Source: Devosia soli (GTDB lineage Bacteria; Pseudomonadota; Alphaproteobacteria; Rhizobiales; Devosiaceae). Taken from it: DNA of 64,000 nt. The first letter of the stretch is position 1; each line of letters starts with the position of its first letter. Positions 2,681-59,748 of this stretch are shown here, in pieces. The notes beneath the pieces were generated by a model. That model did not search any database and was not told the origin of the DNA. It saw nothing but the letters and a program-made list of their open reading frames with translations. A program made the position numbers and the translations under genes. The stretch spans positions 1-64,000 of the forward strand of contig NZ_LAJG01000001.1 of assembly GCF_000970455.1 (NCBI RefSeq). Direction: 5' to 3'.

Positions 2681-3430
2681 TTACTGGCCGGCCGCCCAAT
2701 CGCAAAGTTGGGTCCAGAGCCTGTCATAGCCCGGCCATTCGACGAATGGCGGCGGCGCCCAGTGCGGCCCGCAATCGGACGCGAAAGCAACACTTCGGCC
2801 TTGGCCGAAGCTGCCCGCAACGATGAGCGGATGATCGCCGACTCGGGCGACCAGAGTGGCGTCGGGCTTAGCCGCAATGCGATTGTAGCCGAGAAGGATC
2901 GGCCACTCGTCATCAAGTCCGGCGACGATTGGGTGGTTGCCATCGGCAATCGTTGGATGAATGCCTTGGGGAGCTTCGACACGATCGTCGCCCTGTTCGA
3001 TCGAAACCGGCAGCGCTTCTTCGATCGGGGAGCCGGCATACTGCGCCTTTGCGTCAATCCCCTGGAAAGTGAGATAGCCCCCCACCATGACGAGCCCGCC
3101 GCCCTTGGCGACATAGTCGCGAATCGAGGCGAGCCGATTGGGCAGGACGCGGGACTTGGTAAAGGTCTCGGGATGAAGGAGCAACGTATTGGCGCCGATA
3201 TCTGAAAGCAGCACGACGTCATAGGCGGCAAGATCTTCCGGCGTGAAGGGAAAATCGCGCGCTGCGACATGGGATGGCTGAAAGGTGACATCCCAACCGC
3301 CTTTTTCGAGCGCAGTCTTCAGCCAGCGCACGCCTTCGGCATATTCGGTGGTGGTGAAACTGTCGAACCCCTTCTGGTGGATCGAGTGAACGGTCCAGGA
3401 TTCGCCGGCAATCAGGATGCGTTTGGTCAT
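2681..3430 (-). CDS. GATase1-like (DUF1355-type) cytoplasmic protein (249 aa)
   Basis: The fold signature is that of class-I glutamine amidotransferase-like proteins. It opens with RILIAGESWT, has DVVLLSDIGANTLLL in the middle and GGGLVMVGGYLTFQG where a nucleophile elbow would be, and closes with GRSVAFASDCGPHWAP. The elbow reads MVGGYL rather than GxCxG, so amidotransferase chemistry is doubtful. Proteins of this type often stand next to sugar and nucleoside utilisation genes with no settled role. It starts 3 bases after the stop of the LacI regulator gene, so the two are translated from one transcript. Confidence 0.78.
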   Translation of the reverse strand: MTKRILIAGESWTVHSIHQKGFDSFTTTEYAEGVRWLKTALEKGGWDVTFQPSHVAARDFPFTPEDLAAYDVVLLSDIGANTLLLHPETFTKSRVLPNRLASIRDYVAKGGGLVMVGGYLTFQGIDAKAQYAGSPIEEALPVSIEQGDDRVEAPQGIHPTIADGNHPIVAGLDDEWPILLGYNRIAAKPDATLVARVGDHPLIVAGSFGQGRSVAFASDCGPHWAPPPFVEWPGYDRLWTQLCDWAAGQ

Positions 3431-45832: not shown

Positions 45833-47410
45833 ATGAGTGATCCTCATTCCGCAACGCTTTGGGGCCTCTTCGAGATCGCGCTCGATGGTCCTTCGGCGGG
45901 TAACCCGTTTCTGGAGGTCACATTCGAGGCGACCTTCAGCCAGGGCGGCACAACGCTAAAGGTGCCCGGTTTTTATGACGGCGAGGGCGTCTATCGCCTG
46001 CGGTTCATGCCGCAGGCCGAGGGAACTTGGCACTATCGGACATCGAGCAATGTCGCGGCGCTCGATGGGGTCGAGGGCTCGCTTTCCGTCGGGCCGGCCA
46101 AGGCAGGCGATCATGGACCGGTGCGCGCAATGGGCGAGCACTTCCGCTATGCCGATGGCAGCCGCTACATCAATATCGGCACGACGGCCTATGTCTGGAA
46201 CCTCCAGGGCGATGCCATGGAAGAGGAAACGCTGGCAACGCTGGCTGGCGCGCCCTTCACCAAGATCCGGATGTGCGTCTTTCCCAAGCATTATCGCTAT
46301 AACCAGAACGAGCCGCCACTCTATCCTTTCGCGCTGATCAAGCGCGGCACGAGCGAGTGGGGCGGTTCGATGAAGAACGGCGGCTGGGAGTTCGATTGCG
46401 ACCGGTTCGAGCCCGCCTATTTCCGGCATCTCGAAAAGCGCATTGCCGATCTCAATACGCTCGGGATCGAGTCGGACCTGATCCTGCTCCATCCCTATGA
46501 TCGCTGGGGCTTTGCCCATATGTCGGCGGATCAGGACGATCGGTATTTGCGCTATGTCGTGGCGCGGCTAGCAGCCTATCCCAATGTCTGGTGGTCGATG
46601 GCCAATGAATATGACTTCATGTTCAACAAGACGCTGGCCGATTGGGATCGCATGATCGGCGTCGTTGCCGAGGCCGACCCGTTCGGGCATCTGCTATCGG
46701 TGCACAATGGTTTTGCGCCATACGACTATTCGGACAAGCGCATCACCCATGTCAGTATCCAGCGACCTTATACCGAGCGGATCGCGCTCTGGCGCAAGCA
46801 GTTCGGCAAGCCGGTTTCGGACGATGAGTGCTGTTATGAAGGCGATATCGCCGAGCATTGGGGCAATATTTCAGGCCGCGAGCTGGTGCACCGGTTCTGG
46901 GACGGCACGGTGGCTGGCGGCTCGGTCACTCATGGCGAGACCTTTTACAACGAAGCCGAAAACCTCTGGTGGGCCAAAGGCGGCAAGCTGGTCGGCGAGA
47001 GTGTCGCGCGTATCGCGTTCTTGAAACGCATTCTCGAAGCGGGGCCCGACGAAGGGCTCGATCCGGTGCCAACCACGGGTTCATACAAGACGATGATGGC
47101 GGGCGGACTCGATCACGCGAACCTGCGAGAGCTGATCAATCCCAATCCCGGCGAGGAAGGCTGGGTTCGCGTCGGAACGCATTTTGCCACGGCTGGGCAG
47201 CCGCACCGCTATTACCTCACCTATTTCGGACAAAACCAGCCGGGCGAGTTTGCCGTGCCCGTGCCACCAAATGAGCATTATCGGGCAACGTTGATCGACA
47301 CTTGGGACATGACCGAGGCGGTTATTGCCGAAAGCGTGCAGCGCGGAGATGTGCTCCGCTTCAAGGCCAAGCCCTATCAGGCACTGCGCCTCAATCGTAT
47401 CGAGGCCTGA
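45833..47410 (+). CDS. Apiosidase-like glycoside hydrolase (DUF5060 + DUF4038/GH140-type, 525 aa)
   Basis: Residues 5-85 are a DUF5060 beta domain (LWGLFEIALDGPSAGNPFLEV, then VPGFYDGEGVYRLRFMP). Residues about 100-420 are an apiosidase-type (DUF4038) TIM barrel. The clan GH-A acid/base is probable at Glu259 in WWSMANEYDF, and the nucleophile region is SDDECCYEGD (Glu332 or Glu336). HPYDRWG at 220-226 lines the site. The C-terminal about 90 residues are a DUF5605-like beta domain. There is no signal peptide, so it acts on material already imported. It is encoded after an Opp-type importer and opposite an apiose-type catabolic operon, which points to cleavage of apiose-containing glycosides in the cytoplasm. 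Confidence 0.85.
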   Translation: MSDPHSATLWGLFEIALDGPSAGNPFLEVTFEATFSQGGTTLKVPGFYDGEGVYRLRFMPQAEGTWHYRTSSNVAALDGVEGSLSVGPAKAGDHGPVRAMGEHFRYADGSRYINIGTTAYVWNLQGDAMEEETLATLAGAPFTKIRMCVFPKHYRYNQNEPPLYPFALIKRGTSEWGGSMKNGGWEFDCDRFEPAYFRHLEKRIADLNTLGIESDLILLHPYDRWGFAHMSADQDDRYLRYVVARLAAYPNVWWSMANEYDFMFNKTLADWDRMIGVVAEADPFGHLLSVHNGFAPYDYSDKRITHVSIQRPYTERIALWRKQFGKPVSDDECCYEGDIAEHWGNISGRELVHRFWDGTVAGGSVTHGETFYNEAENLWWAKGGKLVGESVARIAFLKRILEAGPDEGLDPVPTTGSYKTMMAGGLDHANLRELINPNPGEEGWVRVGTHFATAGQPHRYYLTYFGQNQPGEFAVPVPPNEHYRATLIDTWDMTEAVIAESVQRGDVLRFKAKPYQALRLNRIEA

Positions 47411-47421
47411 GGGGAATGACG

Positions 47422-48936
47422 ATGACTAGTAGTGCGACAGCCGTCTGGGACATTTTCGAACTGGCACTGGATGGCCCGAGCGAGGGCAATCCCTTTCTCG
47501 AGGTCGAGCTTGCGGCGGTGTTTTCGCAAGGCAGCCGCACCGTGCGCGTGCCCGGCTTTTACGATGGGGAGGGCCGCTATATCGTTCGCTTCATGCCTGA
47601 TGCGGAAGGAGAATGGCGCTACGAGACGAGCTCCTCCGCTCAGGCGCTTTCTGGCAAGACCGGCAGCGTTTCGGCAACAGCACCACGGGCTGGGGTGCAC
47701 GGACCGGTGCGCGTCGCCAACCAATTCCACTTTGCCCATGCCGACGGCACGCCGTTTCTGTCCTTCGGCACGACCTGCTACGCCTGGACGCACCAGCCGC
47801 TGAGCGAGCAGGAGAAGACACTGTCCACCCTCGCCAAGGCGCGGTTCAACAAGCTGCGCATGGGCGTCTTCCCCAAGGACTATCCCTACAACGTCAACGA
47901 GCCGCTGCATGATGTCTATCAGCGCAAGGCCGATGGCAGCTTCGATTTCGACCGGCCCAATCCCGAGAGTTTCCGGCACTTCGAAAATCAGGTGAAGGCG
48001 CTCGGCGATATGGGCATTCAGGCCGATATCATCATGCTGCACCCCTATGATCGCTGGGGCTATTCCGGCATGAGCGAAGCGCAGGACTACCGCTATTTCG
48101 CCTATCTCGTCGCGAGGCTCGGCGCCTATCACAATGTCTGGTGGTCGCTCGCCAACGAATACGATTTCCTGCTCAACACCAAGCCGATGGAGCAGTGGGA
48201 CCGGTTCTTCTCCATCATCCAGGAGAACGATCCCTATGATCATCTCCGCTCGATCCACAATGGCGACCCCGAAGCCAATTACGATCACACCAAGCCTTGG
48301 GTAACCCATTCCTGCATCCAGAATTGGGATGTGAAGCGGACCGGCGAGTGGCGCGCGGCCTATGGCAAGCCGGTGGTCAATGACGAGCCGGAATATGAAG
48401 GCAATATCATCCAGGTCTGGGGCAATATTTCGGCCCAGGAACTCGTCCATCGGTTCTGGATTACCACGATGCGCGGGGGCTATGCGGGGCATGGCGAAAC
48501 CTTCAGCCATCCCGAAGACCTGATCTGGTGGGCCAAGGGAGGCGAACTCCGTGGCGAGGCCTGGAAGCGGATCGGCTTTCTGCGGCAGGTTATGGAAGAG
48601 GATGCGAAGAACGGCTTCGAGCCGATCGATCCCAAGACGCGCTATCCGTGGAACCGGGTTTCGGGTGCGCGGGACGGGGACACGACGATCATCTATTTCG
48701 GCGAGCACCAGCCGGTGATCTGGGCCTCGGGCCTGCCCAAGGAGGACGGCGATTATCAGGTCGACCTGATCGACACCTGGAACATGACGATCGAGCCGGC
48801 AAAGGTCGTTCCGGCACCGGCAAATCATCCGACGCGGCATGGCGCGGTGGTGGCGCCGACGCGGCCAGATTCTGCGTTTGCTGTGGAACTGCCGGGCCGG
48901 CCCTATCTCGCGATCCGCGTACGGGGCGCGAGATAG
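47422..48936 (+). CDS. Apiosidase-like glycoside hydrolase, second paralogue (504 aa)
   Basis: This is a paralogue of the preceding protein with the same three domains: DUF5060 at the start (VWDIFELALDGPSEGNPFLEVEL), barrel with HPYDRWGYSGMSEAQDYRYF, VWWSLANEYDFLL (acid/base Glu) and NDEPEYEGNII (nucleophile region), then a beta domain. The nucleophile motif differs (DEPEYEG against DECCYEG), and the insert around ALIKRGTSEWGG of the first copy is shorter here, so the two may cut different linkages. I prefer the ATG at 47422 (GGGG 7 bases upstream) over the one at 47416. The stop is 14 bases before the convergent adenine deaminase gene. Confidence 0.85.
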   Translation: MTSSATAVWDIFELALDGPSEGNPFLEVELAAVFSQGSRTVRVPGFYDGEGRYIVRFMPDAEGEWRYETSSSAQALSGKTGSVSATAPRAGVHGPVRVANQFHFAHADGTPFLSFGTTCYAWTHQPLSEQEKTLSTLAKARFNKLRMGVFPKDYPYNVNEPLHDVYQRKADGSFDFDRPNPESFRHFENQVKALGDMGIQADIIMLHPYDRWGYSGMSEAQDYRYFAYLVARLGAYHNVWWSLANEYDFLLNTKPMEQWDRFFSIIQENDPYDHLRSIHNGDPEANYDHTKPWVTHSCIQNWDVKRTGEWRAAYGKPVVNDEPEYEGNIIQVWGNISAQELVHRFWITTMRGGYAGHGETFSHPEDLIWWAKGGELRGEAWKRIGFLRQVMEEDAKNGFEPIDPKTRYPWNRVSGARDGDTTIIYFGEHQPVIWASGLPKEDGDYQVDLIDTWNMTIEPAKVVPAPANHPTRHGAVVAPTRPDSAFAVELPGRPYLAIRVRGAR

Positions 48937-53950: not shown

Positions 53951-54227
53951 GGCGCTAGAGCTGATTGGCAATACGCACGGCGACCGGCCCGCTGTTCTGG
54001 GCAATCGGCAAATCTGAGGCGCAGGCACCGACGAACAGGGTGCAATCGATCAGCGCCCGGCAGACTGAGAAGTCGTGCCCTCTGATTGGGCATGTGTCGA
54101 CATGTTCCCGAACCTTTCCCTGCCAAAGTGTGACCGGCTGCAGAAAGCTCCTTTTAACCGCGTTCGTCGATGCTCCAAGACTTCGAGAAGCAAAAACCTG
54201 CGGGCGAGCGAGGAGGAAACAAAAAAG

Positions 54228-55723
54228 GTGGGATTTGCCACAAGCCCCTTGCCTAGGTACTCAATATTCGGCGTCGCCAGCCTTTGCTGGCTGGGCGCTA
54301 TTATTTGCCCAAGCATGGCCGCGGGTGAATGCGGGCCTGCTGTCGCGGGTGTGGTCACCTGCAACGACACTTCGAATAATCCGTTCGCTGACGGGATAAC
54401 ATATGCCTCGCCAGGTATCGTCGCAATCAATCTTGGAAGTGGGATCATCCTCGATCGAACGGCCGGCACAGCCAATGTCGGCGTTCAATTGCAAACCTTC
54501 ACGGGCGCCCCTGCCGCGATAACGCTATCGAACGGCGTTGTCGTCAACACATCGGGTCTCTACGCGAGTGGTGTCGTCGTTCAGAGTTCTGGCGACATGT
54601 TCATAACTTCGGCGGCAGACATTGCCGTCGCTGTGCCTACCAGCATTGTTGCCCCAACCGGCGTCGGGACATACGGGCTGCAAGCATGGGCGAGCGACTC
54701 TTCCGGGGCGGCCAATATAGGCATCGTCCAACAAGCAAATAGCTCGATAAACGTCTCCGGTATGGAAGGCATCGGGATCTACAGCCTGAATAATGGCGCG
54801 GGTTCCGCAACGATCAGCGCGTCAGGCAGCATCGGAACCGCTGGTTTCCGGGGATACGGGATCAATGCCTGGAACACTTTGACAACAGGCGGCACAACCC
54901 CGATCAGCCTGACCGAACAAGGGACGGTCGTCACGGATGGCGAAGAGGCGGTCGGTCTTTACAGCCTCAACGATGGATCTGGCGATGCATCCATCTCCCT
55001 GGCCGGCCAGATTGAGACCCTCAATTACAGTTCGGACGCCGCAATCGCATATATCACCAATGCGTCGAGCGCCGGAAATGCACGCATTTCAGCTTCCGAA
55101 AGCGCTTCTGTCACGACGAAAGGCGATATTTCCAATGGACTCTGGGCGCTGAATTTTGGCTTGGGTGAAGTAAGCGTAGCGTCCGGCGGGACTATTACTA
55201 CAGATGGCGCGTCTTCAAACGGGATCCGGGCAAACATCTATAATTCAGCGAGCGCGGGGCAAGCTGCCGTCAGCATGCTGGCCGGCGCGCGCATCGATTC
55301 CAAAGGCACTGAAGCGAACGGCATTCTCGTCAACAACCGCGGTGTCGGGGCAAGCTCGGTGTCGCTGCAAGCAAGAACGTTTGTGATGACCTCTGGTGCC
55401 CGCGCCTACGGCATTTCCATCACTGGCACGGGAACTGCCTCACTAAGGCAGGAGGAAGCGTCCGTAATAAGCGCTTCGGGCGAACAGTCTTTTGCCGCCA
55501 ATCTGACCGCAGCCGGCTACGTCGATGTCAACATCGCTGGGGTGCAGAGGCCAGTGGTCTTTTCGGTGTTGGCATCTCGTCCTTCTCGTCTGCCTCCGAT
55601 ACCGATGTGCTTATCGGATCGAGCAGGACGATTTCAGGCGGGTGGCAGGTCGACGTCATAGGACGCGGCGCCGTATCCAGGTTACCGTGCGCTAAGCTCA
55701 GCAGGTGCGACAGGCGGCTTTGA
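54228..55723 (+). pseudogene. Autotransporter-type passenger domain, frameshifted and without a barrel
   Basis: The GTG at 54228 follows a strong AGGAGG (54211-54216) and begins VGFATSPLPRYSIFGVASLC, a signal peptide ending at SMAA before GECGPAV. About 440 residues of Gly/Ser/Ala-rich repeats follow, typical of beta-helix passenger domains (for example GIGIYSLNNGAGSATISASG and VGLYSLNDGSGDASISLAG). Near 55545-55555 the frame breaks: the original frame ends at 55661 in unrelated residues. The next frame continues the repeat style as GAEASGLFGVGISSFSSASD to a TGA at 55721. No outer-membrane barrel follows. Either a truncated remnant or a frameshifted gene cut at the boundary with the tRNA-Gly fragment. 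Confidence 0.7.
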
Positions 55724-55826
55724 TCAGTGAGCCAAGTTTTTGGGCGATGCGACGCTGCAGCGCGGCTGACACTCAGTTTTTTACCGGTTTATCAGGGAGT
55801 TACCTTAACCGCGACGCGGTGGCGCT

Positions 55827-55856
55827 GGAGCGGGTGAAGGGAATTGAACCCTCGTA
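55827..55856 (-). other. 3' end of a tRNA-Gly gene (30 nt), probable att site
   Basis: Read on the minus strand, these 30 bases are the last part of an alphaproteobacterial tRNA-Gly: the T arm with GGGTTCAATTCCC and the acceptor CACCCGCTCCA. The 5' half, with the matching GCGGGTG about 45 bases further right, is absent. Integrative elements that insert at tRNA 3' ends leave exactly such a duplicate. Given the minus orientation, the intact tRNA should lie to the right, with the element between. This puts the AAA+/CoiA module inside the element near its left border. Confidence 0.72.
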
Positions 55857-55991
55857 GATATTTCAGCATTCACAATGGTTTAGGCGAAGACAATCTTGCC
55901 TCGTAGCTCCGTCCGTAGCGCATTTTGTGGCACAACTGCTCCGTACCACATTAACCATTTTGATCAATGGTCGATGACAACTGAGAATAGG
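55857..55991. other. Non-coding stretch after the tRNA fragment
   Basis: There is no gene or integrase ORF here. One hairpin is visible: AGGCGAAGA with a CAA loop and TCTTGCCT near 55891-55911, with one unpaired base. The whole gap 55724-56111 between the autotransporter remnant and the 37-codon ORF holds the tRNA fragment, this hairpin, a promoter and a structured leader. Confidence 0.5.
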
Positions 55992-56019
55992 TTGACATGA
56001 TAGGCGAGGGATTTATGTC
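55992..56019 (+). promoter_or_regulatory. Predicted sigma-70 promoter of the accessory module
   Basis: A perfect TTGACA (55992-55997) is followed after 16 bases by TATGTC (56014-56019). The expected start site falls at about 56025, so the transcript would begin with the hairpin leader at 56021-56079. Confidence 0.5.
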
Positions 56020-56020
56020 C

Positions 56021-56079
56021 CGGCTGCCATTGGAGCAGCCGTCGAAGTTGGTGGAACAACTTCGACGGCCTGACCAGGC
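56021..56079 (+). promoter_or_regulatory. Structured leader with competing hairpins
   Basis: Three stems share bases. Stem A is CGGCTGC/GCAGCCG (56021-56041, 7-nt loop). Stem B is a perfect 13-bp GCCGTCGAAGTTG/CAACTTCGACGGC (56038-56069, loop GTGGAA). Stem C is GCCTG/CAGGC (56068-56079). A and B overlap by four bases and B and C by two, so they cannot all form. This looks like a switchable RNA leader or a protein-binding site upstream of the 37-codon ORF. No T-run follows B. Confidence 0.55.
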
Positions 56080-56111
56080 GGCCATCACCCTGCTAGAACA
56101 GGAGAAGCCAC

Positions 56112-56225
56112 ATGGCTAAACGTATCTACGGCTGCGATCAGATTCGCGGCAACACTTTCCCTAAAGATTTGGTCTCTGTCTGGCTCGTTGAAGCCTTTGG
56201 CGCACCGGACCGTCTGACCGCTTAA
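56112..56225 (+). CDS. Small ORF, 37 aa, leader peptide or small protein
   Basis: The ATG follows ACAGGAGA at 5 to 8 bases, a good ribosome site. The peptide begins MAKRIYGCDQIRGN and ends FGAPDRLTA. A 6-bp hairpin GACCGC/GCGGTC (56216-56233) overlaps its last codons and stop. The AAA+ gene starts 153 bases later. It could be a leader peptide that controls the downstream genes or a small partner protein. No family is recognised. The strong ribosome site and the position after the structured leader are the only support. Confidence 0.5.
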   Translation: MAKRIYGCDQIRGNTFPKDLVSVWLVEAFGAPDRLTA

Positions 56226-56378
56226 GGGCGGTCTGCGCCTAGCGCCAGCTTCATAGCGGGTTCTTTCCCTCGGCTTTTCGCTGAGCGGATCGACTACGCC
56301 CGTCCAGATCACAGCGAGCCTTTCCCGCTTTGCGCCTTGCTGCGCCACGGGTTCGCTCGCCCACGAGTCCAAATCACC

Positions 56379-57593
56379 ATGACCAATGACAACACCAAGC
56401 CTAAGTCAAAAGCTTCGCCCCCTCGTCCTGAGGACGATGCCAACAAGCAGCCTCGCAGTCTCTTCAAGCCCGCTAAACCGGAAGACCTTGATCCGCTCGA
56501 TCTGAGCTATCGCCCACCAGATGGCGATGAGGGCGATGACACGTCGGAACAGCCTGAGCCGGAACTAGATGACTTCGCTCGGGCCCTTTACGGGGAGTAC
56601 CGCGACTATGGGATCACGACCTATCGCGAGCTTGATCGGCTCAATAGTGCTGCAAGCGAAGTGAGGTTTGGCAAGCCCAGGGTGGCGCTATTTAAGCTCA
56701 AGCCTTTTGCGGTGATGCGCCTGACCGATGCTGACCTCGTTGTAAGCATGGGCGCGATTTCTGCCGAAGAGAGAAAGGATCATCCAACCAAGGCGAACCT
56801 GCTCCTTAACTCTGGCGATGCTGCCGAGCTCAAAGGGCCGCACTCTGTCGATCTGATAGATAGTGCGATTGCCGATCTTTATGCCCACTTTCCGCATTTT
56901 GGCCCCGCTCTGCAGGCGATCCGGGAATGCGCCAATCTCAGCATTACTCGCGGGGCGCAATGGCTCGAGTTTCGCCCGATCCTTATTTCGTCCGGCCCGG
57001 GGATGGGAAAGTCGACCCTGGCTCGTGCCCTGGCCGATCGGATGGCACTGCCGGTGATCTGGCTTGATGGCTCGACCATGACGACGTCCGTGCCACTGAT
57101 CGGTGGCGATGCCGTCTTCCGCAGTTCTCGCGCCAGCACCATCGTCGAAGGCATGATCAACAACCGCATCGGCAATCCGATCGTCGTGTTGGATGAAGCT
57201 GACAAGATCGCGGACATGTCTCGCGGCGCAAGGCAGGATCCAACCCAAGCCCTCCTCGCCTTCCTTGAGCGCGGCAGCGCGCGGCGGGTCCATGACCACT
57301 TTCTCGGGATTGATCTCGACTTCAGCCACCTCAACTGGGTGCTGTTGGCCAATGATCTCAACCGCATTTCGCCAGCGGTGCGCGATCGCTGCAAGGTTAT
57401 CCAGCTGCCGCCTTTGACCCCAGATCACCTTGCGGCCATTGCCGCGAGCGAAGTCGAGCGGCGGCATCTCGAGCCCGAATTGGTCTCCGCTCTCATCAAG
57501 GCCTGCCGGGTTGGTCAGATCAAAAGCCTACGCAAGCTGCACAAGGCGCTTGATGCGGCGCAGGCGGTGCGCACCCGACCGCTGCTGCACTGA
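56379..57593 (+). CDS. AAA+ ATPase (404 aa) of the accessory module
   Basis: The N-terminal about 65 residues are polar and low-complexity (KPKSKASPPRPEDD). Residues 66-195 are a helical region unlike known families. The AAA+ core starts at 196: Walker A SSGPGMGKST (about 205-213), Walker B IVVLDEAD (268-275), sensor-1 WVLLANDLNRI and the arginine-finger helix SPAVRDRCKVIQL, then a small lid domain. It resembles the Lon/AAA-type P-loop of chaperone proteases. No protease active site follows, so substrate handling would fall to the downstream nuclease. The ATG at 56379 is used. An ATG 42 bases upstream in frame is less likely, and the ribosome site is weak. It ends 65 bases before the CoiA-like gene. 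Confidence 0.85.
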   Translation: MTNDNTKPKSKASPPRPEDDANKQPRSLFKPAKPEDLDPLDLSYRPPDGDEGDDTSEQPEPELDDFARALYGEYRDYGITTYRELDRLNSAASEVRFGKPRVALFKLKPFAVMRLTDADLVVSMGAISAEERKDHPTKANLLLNSGDAAELKGPHSVDLIDSAIADLYAHFPHFGPALQAIRECANLSITRGAQWLEFRPILISSGPGMGKSTLARALADRMALPVIWLDGSTMTTSVPLIGGDAVFRSSRASTIVEGMINNRIGNPIVVLDEADKIADMSRGARQDPTQALLAFLERGSARRVHDHFLGIDLDFSHLNWVLLANDLNRISPAVRDRCKVIQLPPLTPDHLAAIAASEVERRHLEPELVSALIKACRVGQIKSLRKLHKALDAAQAVRTRPLLH

Positions 57594-57658
57594 CCCCTTC
57601 TTCTCCGAAAATTCCGCTTTTTCCACTTTTTCAGAAAAACCAGAAGGAATGCCCTTCA

Positions 57659-59116
57659 ATGACCAAGACCACCAAGCCCAAGGCCATCGCCACATCGCAG
57701 ATCATTTCGAGCCGCAACACTGCCGTGTCGACACAGCGCCAGCCAATGCAGCGCGCCATCCGAGCGGTCTATGACTCGAGGAACGCAAGCGACAAACCCG
57801 TCGACGTCAGCAAGCTCCTTGATGGCCTCAATCAGCCGGCCTTCGCGCAACTGCGGCGGCAGGTTGCCACGGCACACATCAAAGGCATTGCGCTGTTCAA
57901 GTGCGGACAATGCTGTGAGCCAGTGTTCCTGACAGCCGGTGAAGGGGCCCGGGGCGATGGCAGTACGGGCTTCTTCCGGCATCACGTCGGTGACAAAGCC
58001 TGCTCGTGGCGCACTGGCGAGACGCTGCGCTCCGAGGGCAGCGTACAGTTCGGCGGCAATCAGGAAGGCGAGCGGCATCGCCAGCTCAAGCAATTGCTGG
58101 AAAACAGCCTCCGCAGCGATCCAGGCTTTTCCGACATCGTCGTTGAACAACGTGTGCCCACAGAGAGCGGCGAGACTTACCGTCAGCCAGACCTAATGGC
58201 TCGACACGGGAACCAGTTGGTTGCCTTTGAGGTGCAACTGGCACGCCCCAGCCTCCGGACCGTTGTGGAGCGAGAAGCGTTTTATGCCAGCCGGGGCATC
58301 CATCTGATCTGGGTCACTTCCTCAAACGATGTTTTCAACCTTGGCGCCCAGGCGTTTCGCGATCTTTATTTTGCCGAGGGAGGACGCATCTTTGCCGTCG
58401 ATGAGGCATCGGCTCAGCGATCTATGGAAATGGGAAAACTCCATCTCCAGGAGTTGACCATCGAGCCCCAGGTGCAGCCGCCTTACGCTACCTTCAATGT
58501 CTGGAAAGCGGAGACGGTGGGACGAAACATCATCTTTATGCCCAAGACCGAGCGGCATTGGGCCGGCCGGGCCAAATACGGGCAGCGCCTGCAGGAGCAG
58601 ATCAGTTCGTTTGACCCGGCTCTGGTCCATCGCCTGCGCCACGCTGCCGCAAAAGGGTTTGCGGACAGTGCTTCGTCCAAAGACTGGAACAAGCTGAGCG
58701 AGATGCTGGGCGGGGTGGATTTCACCACAGCGATGGCCGACGGCGTCGATGCCATCCTTCTCCTTCTCTTGAGGATTGAGATCCTGGCACACTGCCAGCC
58801 GGATCAGGTTCGCGACCTGAAGGAAAAGGCGCATCGCCAGATCATGGCGATCCTCCGCACCTCGAGCGGCCGACATTGGCTGGCGTTGATCGAGCTTGTG
58901 GCCGGCATTGTCCCGAGGCTAGCTCTTTTTGGATCAGCAGAAGTCAGCACTGCAATCACAGCGCTCAAGCAGGATGATCGGCAGCTCGTGAACCTCCATC
59001 TCAGACACCGGCGCATGCTGTCGGCGCTCTGCCCTTGGCTCGCTTTCGATCTTCTTGCCGCTGCACCCAAGCGCAAGACGGTCCAGCGTCTGGCTCTGCG
59101 CTCAAACGACAGCTGA
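57659..59116 (+). CDS. CoiA-like nuclease domain protein (485 aa)
   Basis: Residues 78-120 are a CoiA-type zinc-finger: FKCGQCCEPVFLT, FFRHHVGD, then ACSW. Residues 136-225 are a PD-(D/E)xK nuclease core: EGERHRQLKQLL, VEQRVPTESGETYRQPDLM (Asp178) and LVAFEVQLARPSLRTVVER (Glu191, Gln193), then REAFYASRGIHLIWV. The C-terminal 260 residues are helical with no recognised domain. CoiA-like proteins occur in DNA competence and in several anti-phage loci. With the AAA+ ATPase upstream, the pair resembles a two-gene nuclease/ATPase system. I cannot name a described system with this pairing. Its stop at 59116 is followed by a hairpin block. Confidence 0.8.
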   Translation: MTKTTKPKAIATSQIISSRNTAVSTQRQPMQRAIRAVYDSRNASDKPVDVSKLLDGLNQPAFAQLRRQVATAHIKGIALFKCGQCCEPVFLTAGEGARGDGSTGFFRHHVGDKACSWRTGETLRSEGSVQFGGNQEGERHRQLKQLLENSLRSDPGFSDIVVEQRVPTESGETYRQPDLMARHGNQLVAFEVQLARPSLRTVVEREAFYASRGIHLIWVTSSNDVFNLGAQAFRDLYFAEGGRIFAVDEASAQRSMEMGKLHLQELTIEPQVQPPYATFNVWKAETVGRNIIFMPKTERHWAGRAKYGQRLQEQISSFDPALVHRLRHAAAKGFADSASSKDWNKLSEMLGGVDFTTAMADGVDAILLLLLRIEILAHCQPDQVRDLKEKAHRQIMAILRTSSGRHWLALIELVAGIVPRLALFGSAEVSTAITALKQDDRQLVNLHLRHRRMLSALCPWLAFDLLAAAPKRKTVQRLALRSNDS

Positions 59117-59126
59117 CGGTCAACCT

Positions 59127-59384
59127 CTTCCCGCTGGCCATTCCAGGCCAGCGGGAAGACCATGTTTCTTACTCCGCTCGACCAATGGGTCTCGGGGTAA
59201 GAAACACGGAAGGGACGGCAAGCCGTCCTTCTCGAGGACTGGAACGGACCAGGGTCCGTTCAAGACAAAGAGCCTTCGGCCAATCTTGAAGAGGAAATGA
59301 TCGAGCCAGAGGTTGACGCCGGCGTGCCCGCCTAGAATTTCCCACCTCCAGCTTCATCGAAGCTGGGGCAAGCGCCGCAGGCGC
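59127..59384. repeat. Block of six consecutive hairpins after the nuclease gene
   Basis: Six perfect or near-perfect stems follow one another. (1) A 13-bp stem CTTCCCGCTGGCC/GGCCAGCGGGAAG (59127-59158). (2) TGTTTCTTAC/GTAAGAAACA extended inward to 14 bp (59163-59206). (3) GGACGGC/GCCGTCC (59213-59228). (4) GAACGGACC/GGTCCGTTC (59242-59261). (5) CCAGCTTC/GAAGCTGG (59348-59366). (6) GCGCC/GGCGC (59372-59384). The first may end the AAA+/CoiA transcript, but it has no proper T-run. The rest suggest a structured RNA or a repetitive element. No ORF in this interval looks coding. Confidence 0.65.
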
Positions 59385-59748
59385 GGAGCGGGCAAAGCCG
59401 GGGTCAAGTTCTCCTCAAGGTCCCGTTGTCTAAATGTGCGCGACAGCGCAAGCGGAAGCATCATTCCACCCAGGCCCAGCCGTAGCGGGCCTGGACGAAG
59501 TCAGCGGCATTTCGACAATGGGAGAGGAGAACGACCTCTTGCGGCTTGCCTTCGGGCACGTGGACCGCGATTCCGTTAATGATTTGCTACACGGCAGGCA
59601 TCGTGCGGTACCGATGCCGTACCTTTTCGCCACGTTAATGGTGACATTTATGACCTTAGGAATGAGGATTTCGTTGAAGCGCTCTGGCAGCTTCCGACCC
59701 CATTCCGGTTGTGCGTGAAAGCCTATGATCACCCCGGAAAGCAGTCGC
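59385..59748. other. Gap without a supported gene
   Basis: ORFs of 94 and 100 codons cross this gap on opposite strands (59434-59718 and 59430-59732). They have no recognisable domain or convincing ribosome site. I also see CCAGGCCC/GGGCCTGG (59469-59493) and the competing pair GGCATCG/CGATGCC (59597-59618) and GGTAC/GTACC followed by TTTT (59607-59627). The latter could end plus-strand transcription. Confidence 0.5.

Follow-up and report, generated by a model that had tools for sequence, protein, structure and literature searches.

A linked AAA+ ATPase and CoiA-like nuclease gene pair in Devosia, flanked by two structured RNA elements and a predicted antisense promoter

Dual-enzyme defence systems that pair an ATPase with a nuclease have been described (e.g. 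PMC11291478), and the PADLOC collection also holds IetAS, in which an AAA+ ATPase accompanies an S8 protease, as well as the candidate system PDC-S14. Regulation by leader and antisense RNA is known from plasmid R1, in which repA is coupled to translation of the tap leader, and CopA represses this translation (PMC12779154). Here we analysed a cassette of ∼3.6 kb in Devosia soli that follows the same two-gene logic of an ATPase with a nuclease-like protein; it lies in positions 1-64,000 of NZ_LAJG01000001.1, the 64,000-nt stretch that is called the window below and to which coordinates refer. PADLOC 2.0 matched no named defence system: the nuclease-like protein had no match and the ATPase had weak P-loop matches only, with IetA reached at just 6e-4 and 17.7 bits. 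The window partner is moreover a CoiA-like nuclease-like protein, not an S8 protease. The models of IetAS and PDC-S14 contain no RNA elements, unlike the cassette, and the likeness to these two systems runs via the proteins of sister operons that are described below. Unlike the dual-enzyme systems, the pair has no PADLOC profile match, and its cassette has a leader with a predicted antisense RNA and a 3' RNA element. We regard it as evenly balanced whether the pair forms a horizontally transferred cassette for defence or element conflict in which an antisense RNA keeps expression low.

The two genes are strictly linked. Within a genus sample of 75 genomes, the nuclease gene was present in 19 and the ATPase gene in the same 19, while the other 56 contained neither. 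In all 19 carriers the genes are adjacent and in the same order, without unlinked orthologues, even though the cassette proteins are only 27-51% identical between orthologues. Linked pairs were confined to this genus in an order sample of 397 genomes, and the matches to the ATPase only or the nuclease only outside the genus were distant and unlinked. It is thus well supported that the pair is a real, unnamed ATPase-nuclease system. The initial annotation, which was made from the sequence alone, had suggested an undescribed two-gene defence or element-maintenance system; the absence of a named match and the complete linkage uphold its first part, whereas a role in defence or maintenance is suggested by context. 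From left to right the cassette consists of a TTAACCAT box, a promoter, a structured leader, a small open reading frame (ORF), the ATPase gene, the nuclease-like gene and a 3' element, with the following features:

55951..55958, plus strand: TTAACCAT box (reported CtrA-type motif), left edge of the cassette, placed by alignment.
55974..56002, plus strand: predicted forward promoter (TGAC element and -10-like CA...T element), from invariant columns at promoter spacing in 16 loci.
56008..56083, plus strand: structured leader with helices P1 (56008-56011/56018-56021), P2 (56022-56028/56077-56083) and P3 (56038-56050/56057-56069), from covariation and the RNA model.
56089..56102, plus strand: P4 hairpin CCTG/CAGG, which covers the small-ORF ribosome site and retains its four pairs in 18/18 loci.
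56112..56225, plus strand: 37-codon ORF found in 18/18 readable loci, which probably encodes a leader peptide.
56123..56152, minus strand: predicted antisense promoter inside the small ORF (-35 TTGCCG at 56152-56147, -10 TAGATA at 56128-56123, palindrome in the spacer), from a promoter scan.
56030..56117 (ends approximate), minus strand: predicted antisense RNA over the ribosome site and P3.
56379..57593, plus strand: AAA+ ATPase, Lon-AAA-like, without protease domain, from profile and alignment; open frame from TTG 56337.
57659..59116, plus strand: zinc-finger and PD-(D/E)xK nuclease-like protein (DUF7830, DUF6035/CoiA_nuc) with a conserved C-terminal domain, from profile and alignment.
59127..59158, plus strand: terminator-like hairpin 3' of the nuclease gene, from sequence inspection, at the same place in most relatives.
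59312..59543, listed on the plus strand with the RNA strand undecided: second structured RNA element with two branched domains, right edge of the cassette, from 17 loci.

The ATPase, of ∼400 amino acids and likely starting at ATG 56379 rather than TTG 56337, matches PF00004 with an E-value of 3e-13, and its nearest profiles and solved structures in the Protein Data Bank are those of the Lon AAA domain. In 16 orthologues, Walker A, Walker B (DE.DK) and the Arg finger are kept, in agreement with the AAA+ assignment that had been made by eye. The N-terminal ∼150 residues are variable and acidic, and a conserved stretch directly precedes Walker A. The Ser-Lys protease domain of Lon was not found in the protein, which ends after the AAA lid and is covered by the Lon profile in its AAA part only; compared with Lon, it thus shares the AAA domain and lacks both the N-terminal and the protease domains. 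When genome contigs were scanned with the ATPase, most matches were Lon-like AAA proteins of SAR116 bacteria; we set these proteins aside as paralogues.

The nuclease-like protein scored above the curated cut-offs (given in brackets) for PF19500, with 47.8 bits (22.6), for PF06054, with 34.6 bits (20.3), and for PF25169, with 32.1 bits (27.5). Both these scores and the conservation of active-site and zinc residues place it in the CoiA_nuc/DUF6035 family. In a 17-sequence alignment the zinc ligands C82, C85, H108 and C115 as well as D178 and Q193 are invariant, and position 191 is E or D within a conserved (E/D)xQ motif. The proposed zinc-finger PD-(D/E)xK protein, with Asp178 and Glu191 as key residues, is consistent with this pattern, and the protein may cut DNA. 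With other CoiA nuclease-like/DUF6035 proteins carrying DUF7830 (PF06054, PF19500) it shares domain order, zinc ligands and PD-(D/E)xK-type residues; it differs from them in being always paired with a specific AAA+ ATPase and in its conserved C-terminal domain. Distant DUF6035 relatives, on plasmids and in the other genera examined, do not adjoin this ATPase, and those on plasmids can adjoin other conflict genes, such as one for an AbiJ-NTD4 protein.

The leader was present in all 18 loci with readable upstream DNA. Its 181 nt fold to -79 kcal/mol (z = -6.5 relative to dinucleotide shuffles), its RNA model matches at 56009-56152, and Rfam 15 contained no match for it above the gathering score. 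In helices P2-P6, 89.6% of cells are paired, and the covariation score of 0.254 compares with 0.136 (standard deviation 0.009) in shuffles and at most 0.08 when the helices are slid; P4 is almost invariant and for that reason has no covariation support. TTAAC was found in 16/16 aligned leaders and the full TTAACCAT in 13, with exactly 16 nt between TTAACCAT and the TGAC element in 15 of the 16, and TTAACCAT occurs only once in the window. It has been used as a CtrA-binding motif in Agrobacterium work (PMC11527210), and CtrA might control the cassette. The invariant TGAC and -10-like columns suggest that 55974..56002 works as a promoter, and the small ORF has an AGGAG 7 nt 5' of its ATG. The promoter elements, hairpins and small ORF with a good ribosome site that had been noted in the single sequence recur across loci. 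What did not hold was the treatment of the leader and 3' hairpins as incidental, since both are among the best-conserved parts and are common to other operons. A leader motif, CTGACCAGNCNNCC, was rejected as a specific marker (108 matches in the own genome versus 86 for a control).

The small ORF is conserved only over approximately its first 14 codons, with a C-terminus that is not conserved, and these codons are unlike ordinary coding sequence in that the first positions of NGC codons vary. In one genome (G437) a 1-nt deletion in this part leaves the palindrome intact. On the minus strand the conserved codons carry the pattern TTGNNN-N16-18-TANNNN, and a promoter scan of that strand puts its best match at this position in 54 of 55 leaders, with a mean score of 3.78 versus -0.02 for shuffles. 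Furthermore, P3 is more stable as a minus-strand RNA in 17/18 loci, beyond what composition explains (6.4 versus 1.6 kcal/mol), and 37 diverse leaders together show 159 G-U and 35 A-C cells on the minus strand, as against 41 and 65 on the plus strand. From the recurrent promoter together with the better minus-strand fold of P3, we propose that an antisense RNA may control the leader. By analogy with copA-tap-repA of R1/IncFII, a leader-peptide ORF would lie under a countertranscript that covers the leader hairpin (PMC12779154). The cassette differs in that it is not a replicon, an ATPase-nuclease pair instead of a replication initiator would be controlled, and the small ORF does not overlap the downstream gene.

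In the mechanism that we envisage, the forward promoter behind the TTAACCAT box would give an mRNA with the structured leader and its small ORF, while the opposite-strand promoter inside this ORF would give a short antisense RNA over the ribosome site and the main hairpin. The antisense RNA would keep leader translation, and with it ATPase-nuclease output, low. A shift in this balance, through infection, incoming DNA or loss of a short-lived antisense RNA, could then raise the output. The Lon-like AAA+ ring might sense or remodel a target and license the zinc-finger PD-(D/E)xK protein to cut nucleic acid, and the 3' element may be a separate small RNA or a DNA or RNA site for the pair. If the antisense RNA is real, the cassette would show how costly effectors stay silent until needed.

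The leader could also be a cis-regulatory mRNA structure of the plus strand only, that is, a translational switch or attenuator around the small ORF that involves no antisense RNA, in which case the conserved codons would reflect P4-P6 or an operator palindrome. The ribosome site, start codon and small ORF are indeed kept in nearly all leaders, P4 pairs in 18/18, and P6 shows compensatory changes. We nevertheless consider this unlikely, if worth serious thought: in P3 on the plus strand, A-C cells outnumber G-U cells, a minus-strand -35/-10-like pair with 16-18 nt spacing sits at one position in 54/55 divergent leaders, and the variable first positions of the NGC codons fit neither coding nor a simple helix.

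With our covariance model of the leader (R1), additional copies were detected both within the genus and in other families of the order; in a class-wide sample of 385 genomes the model found no further leaders at E 0.001 besides that of the window's own genome. Behind the same leader, sister operons encode a GIY-YIG-type protein and an AAA+ ATPase with an M41 peptidase domain (FtsH/M41-type), in some cases followed by a DUF6634 gene or a tyrosine recombinase gene as the third gene. The GIY-YIG-type call is based on PGIYVL...AYVG, recognised by eye, and a DUF4357 match; on a Bosea plasmid a related protein is annotated as GIY-YIG and adjoins a related ATPase. In some sister operons the small ORF is the start of the GIY-YIG-type reading frame. 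The GIY-YIG-type protein matches PDC-S14 (9e-17) and the M41-AAA ATPase matches IetA (5e-18), and sister elements occur in several copies per genome. In the genome of the window itself, a second, divergent leader (L205, G000:C7:44000-54000, leader at 2973-3105) precedes an M41-type AAA+ ATPase gene and a DUF6634 gene, with no GIY-YIG gene. We found no paper on DUF6634 or on the present ATPase-nuclease pairing in the open-access literature, and one passing mention of DUF6035. One leader/antisense control unit appears to be reused before unrelated ATPase-nuclease pairs, and the leader can serve as search bait for further effectors.

The element at the 3' end is ∼230 nt long, with 57 predicted pairs of which 34 show compensatory change among 17 loci. 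Its RNA model (R2) scores 211.7 bits in the window, and Rfam 15 contained no match for it, so that the unnamed pair is linked to two structured RNA elements absent from Rfam. The block of hairpins first seen behind the nuclease gene is real and belongs to this conserved element, which ends near 59543 and not at 59116, where the first reading had stopped. A TTGACGC within the element was dropped as a -35 box because it pairs with GTCAA in a covarying stem. R2 finds the element at cassettes and as solo copies, the neighbours of which are tRNA-like sequence, an integrase, a metallophosphoesterase gene or a nuclease remnant. Just upstream of two cassettes, a metallophosphoesterase gene is followed by a 3' element (L035:7060-8613 and L037:1722-2884), a hint that the element also serves other effectors. 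At two solo elements (L258 and L262), ORFs that look like tRNA genes in translation lie at a distance of ∼1 kb or more, an arrangement resembling that of island edges. A bolder proposal, which we consider doubtful, is that both structured RNAs function within an immune module that contains RNA: a promoter/antisense unit would precede different ATPase-nuclease pairs (CoiA plus a Lon-like AAA+ protein; GIY-YIG plus an AAA+ protein of the FtsH/M41-like type), while the 3' RNA would be a trans-acting sensor or scaffold of the nuclease, making these a new class of RNA-associated ATPase-nuclease systems.

Pairwise homology between cassettes starts at TTAACCAT and stops at the 3' element, and that between sister operons ends at the stop codon of their last gene or directly beside it; in both cases the flanks are unrelated. 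No terminal repeats or target duplications were evident at the cassette edges compared, and no transposase, recombinase or TnpB of the IS110 or IS200/IS605 types was found between them. Broken cassette copies occur in four genomes (G456, G438, G443 and G400), as might be expected of a dispensable cassette. Remnants of the ATPase and nuclease genes without a complete cassette (L120, L119, L121, L122 and L255) show repeated gain and decay. In G456 the ATPase gene is frameshifted (L106, G456:C1), and another contig of this genome (C13, L260) has ORFs resembling foreign contamination. Immediately outside the left edge in the window lies one further feature:

55823..55856 (approximate), minus strand: 3' fragment of a tRNA-Gly(CCC) gene, which probably marks where a genomic island integrated.

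This fragment, which the initial annotation had recognised as tRNA-Gly, is identical in 25 of 27 bases to the 3' part of an intact tRNA-Gly(CCC) gene that this genome carries on a different contig; the same end recurs in tRNA genes throughout the genus, and ARAGORN found no intact tRNA in the window. As neither terminal repeats nor an empty site came to light, cassettes may travel inside islands. In other genomes they neighbour genes for phage integrases, a serine recombinase, AIPR (MzaE/AbiU-like), GmrSD-SLFN (HEC-05-like) and a type I methyltransferase. Judged by these neighbours, the cassette is probably a defence or element-conflict module, which may act on phages or other foreign DNA.

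Several observations weigh against a mobile cassette silenced by an antisense RNA. The antisense promoter score is moderate and the 55 leaders are related, hence not independent, and the antisense RNA has no clear intrinsic terminator. The stop codon of the small ORF lies 153 nt upstream of the ATPase start, so that the two lack classical overlap coupling. In genome G438 the leader and the genes remain (with a split nuclease gene) but the 3' element is missing, and the window's own flanks contain no defence genes as far as read. Finally, joined window flanks revealed no empty site in the 75 genomes, matching only the tRNA-Gly end and fragments, and the case for movement therefore rests on the comparison of edges.

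Alternatively, the ATPase and nuclease could act on their own DNA ends, with the leader and 3' element as recognition sites, in a self-mobile or self-maintaining element comparable to the ATPase-nuclease parts of transposition or plasmid-maintenance machinery, and not in defence. Sharp edges in unrelated flanks, the several copies of sister elements per genome, structured non-coding DNA at both ends, solo 3' elements and the tRNA-Gly scar would all suit such an element. However, the cassette contains no transposase, relaxase or replication initiator, the missing terminal repeats, target duplications and empty site count here as well, and the nearby integrases belong to varied larger islands; this explanation seems to us rather improbable. 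Still less can be said for a type I toxin-antitoxin-like addiction module of the island, formed by the antisense RNA and the leader, with the ATPase-nuclease pair or the small peptide as the toxic product. The antisense-promoter architecture over a small ORF, the nuclease-like effector and the island context are in line with it. A small hydrophobic type I toxin conserved across loci was not found, though: the peptide is unconserved after approximately codon 14 and lacks the hydrophobic character of known type I toxins, and the nuclease is a large multi-domain protein. A housekeeping role in competence or recombination, to which the CoiA_nuc family match and a CtrA-type box that could tie expression to the cell cycle would point, is very hard to reconcile with the patchy presence (19/75), the broken copies and the island and defence neighbours.

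Elsewhere in the window, a long ORF (54075-55661) that looks like a repetitive surface protein of the autotransporter type stops shortly before the tRNA-Gly fragment, perhaps because the island edge cuts it short. The window opens (1-90) with the 3' part of a 5S rRNA (Rfam RF00001), and an unrelated part (45833-48936) holds two paralogous ORFs in tandem, of 525 and 544 amino acids, that are 46% identical.

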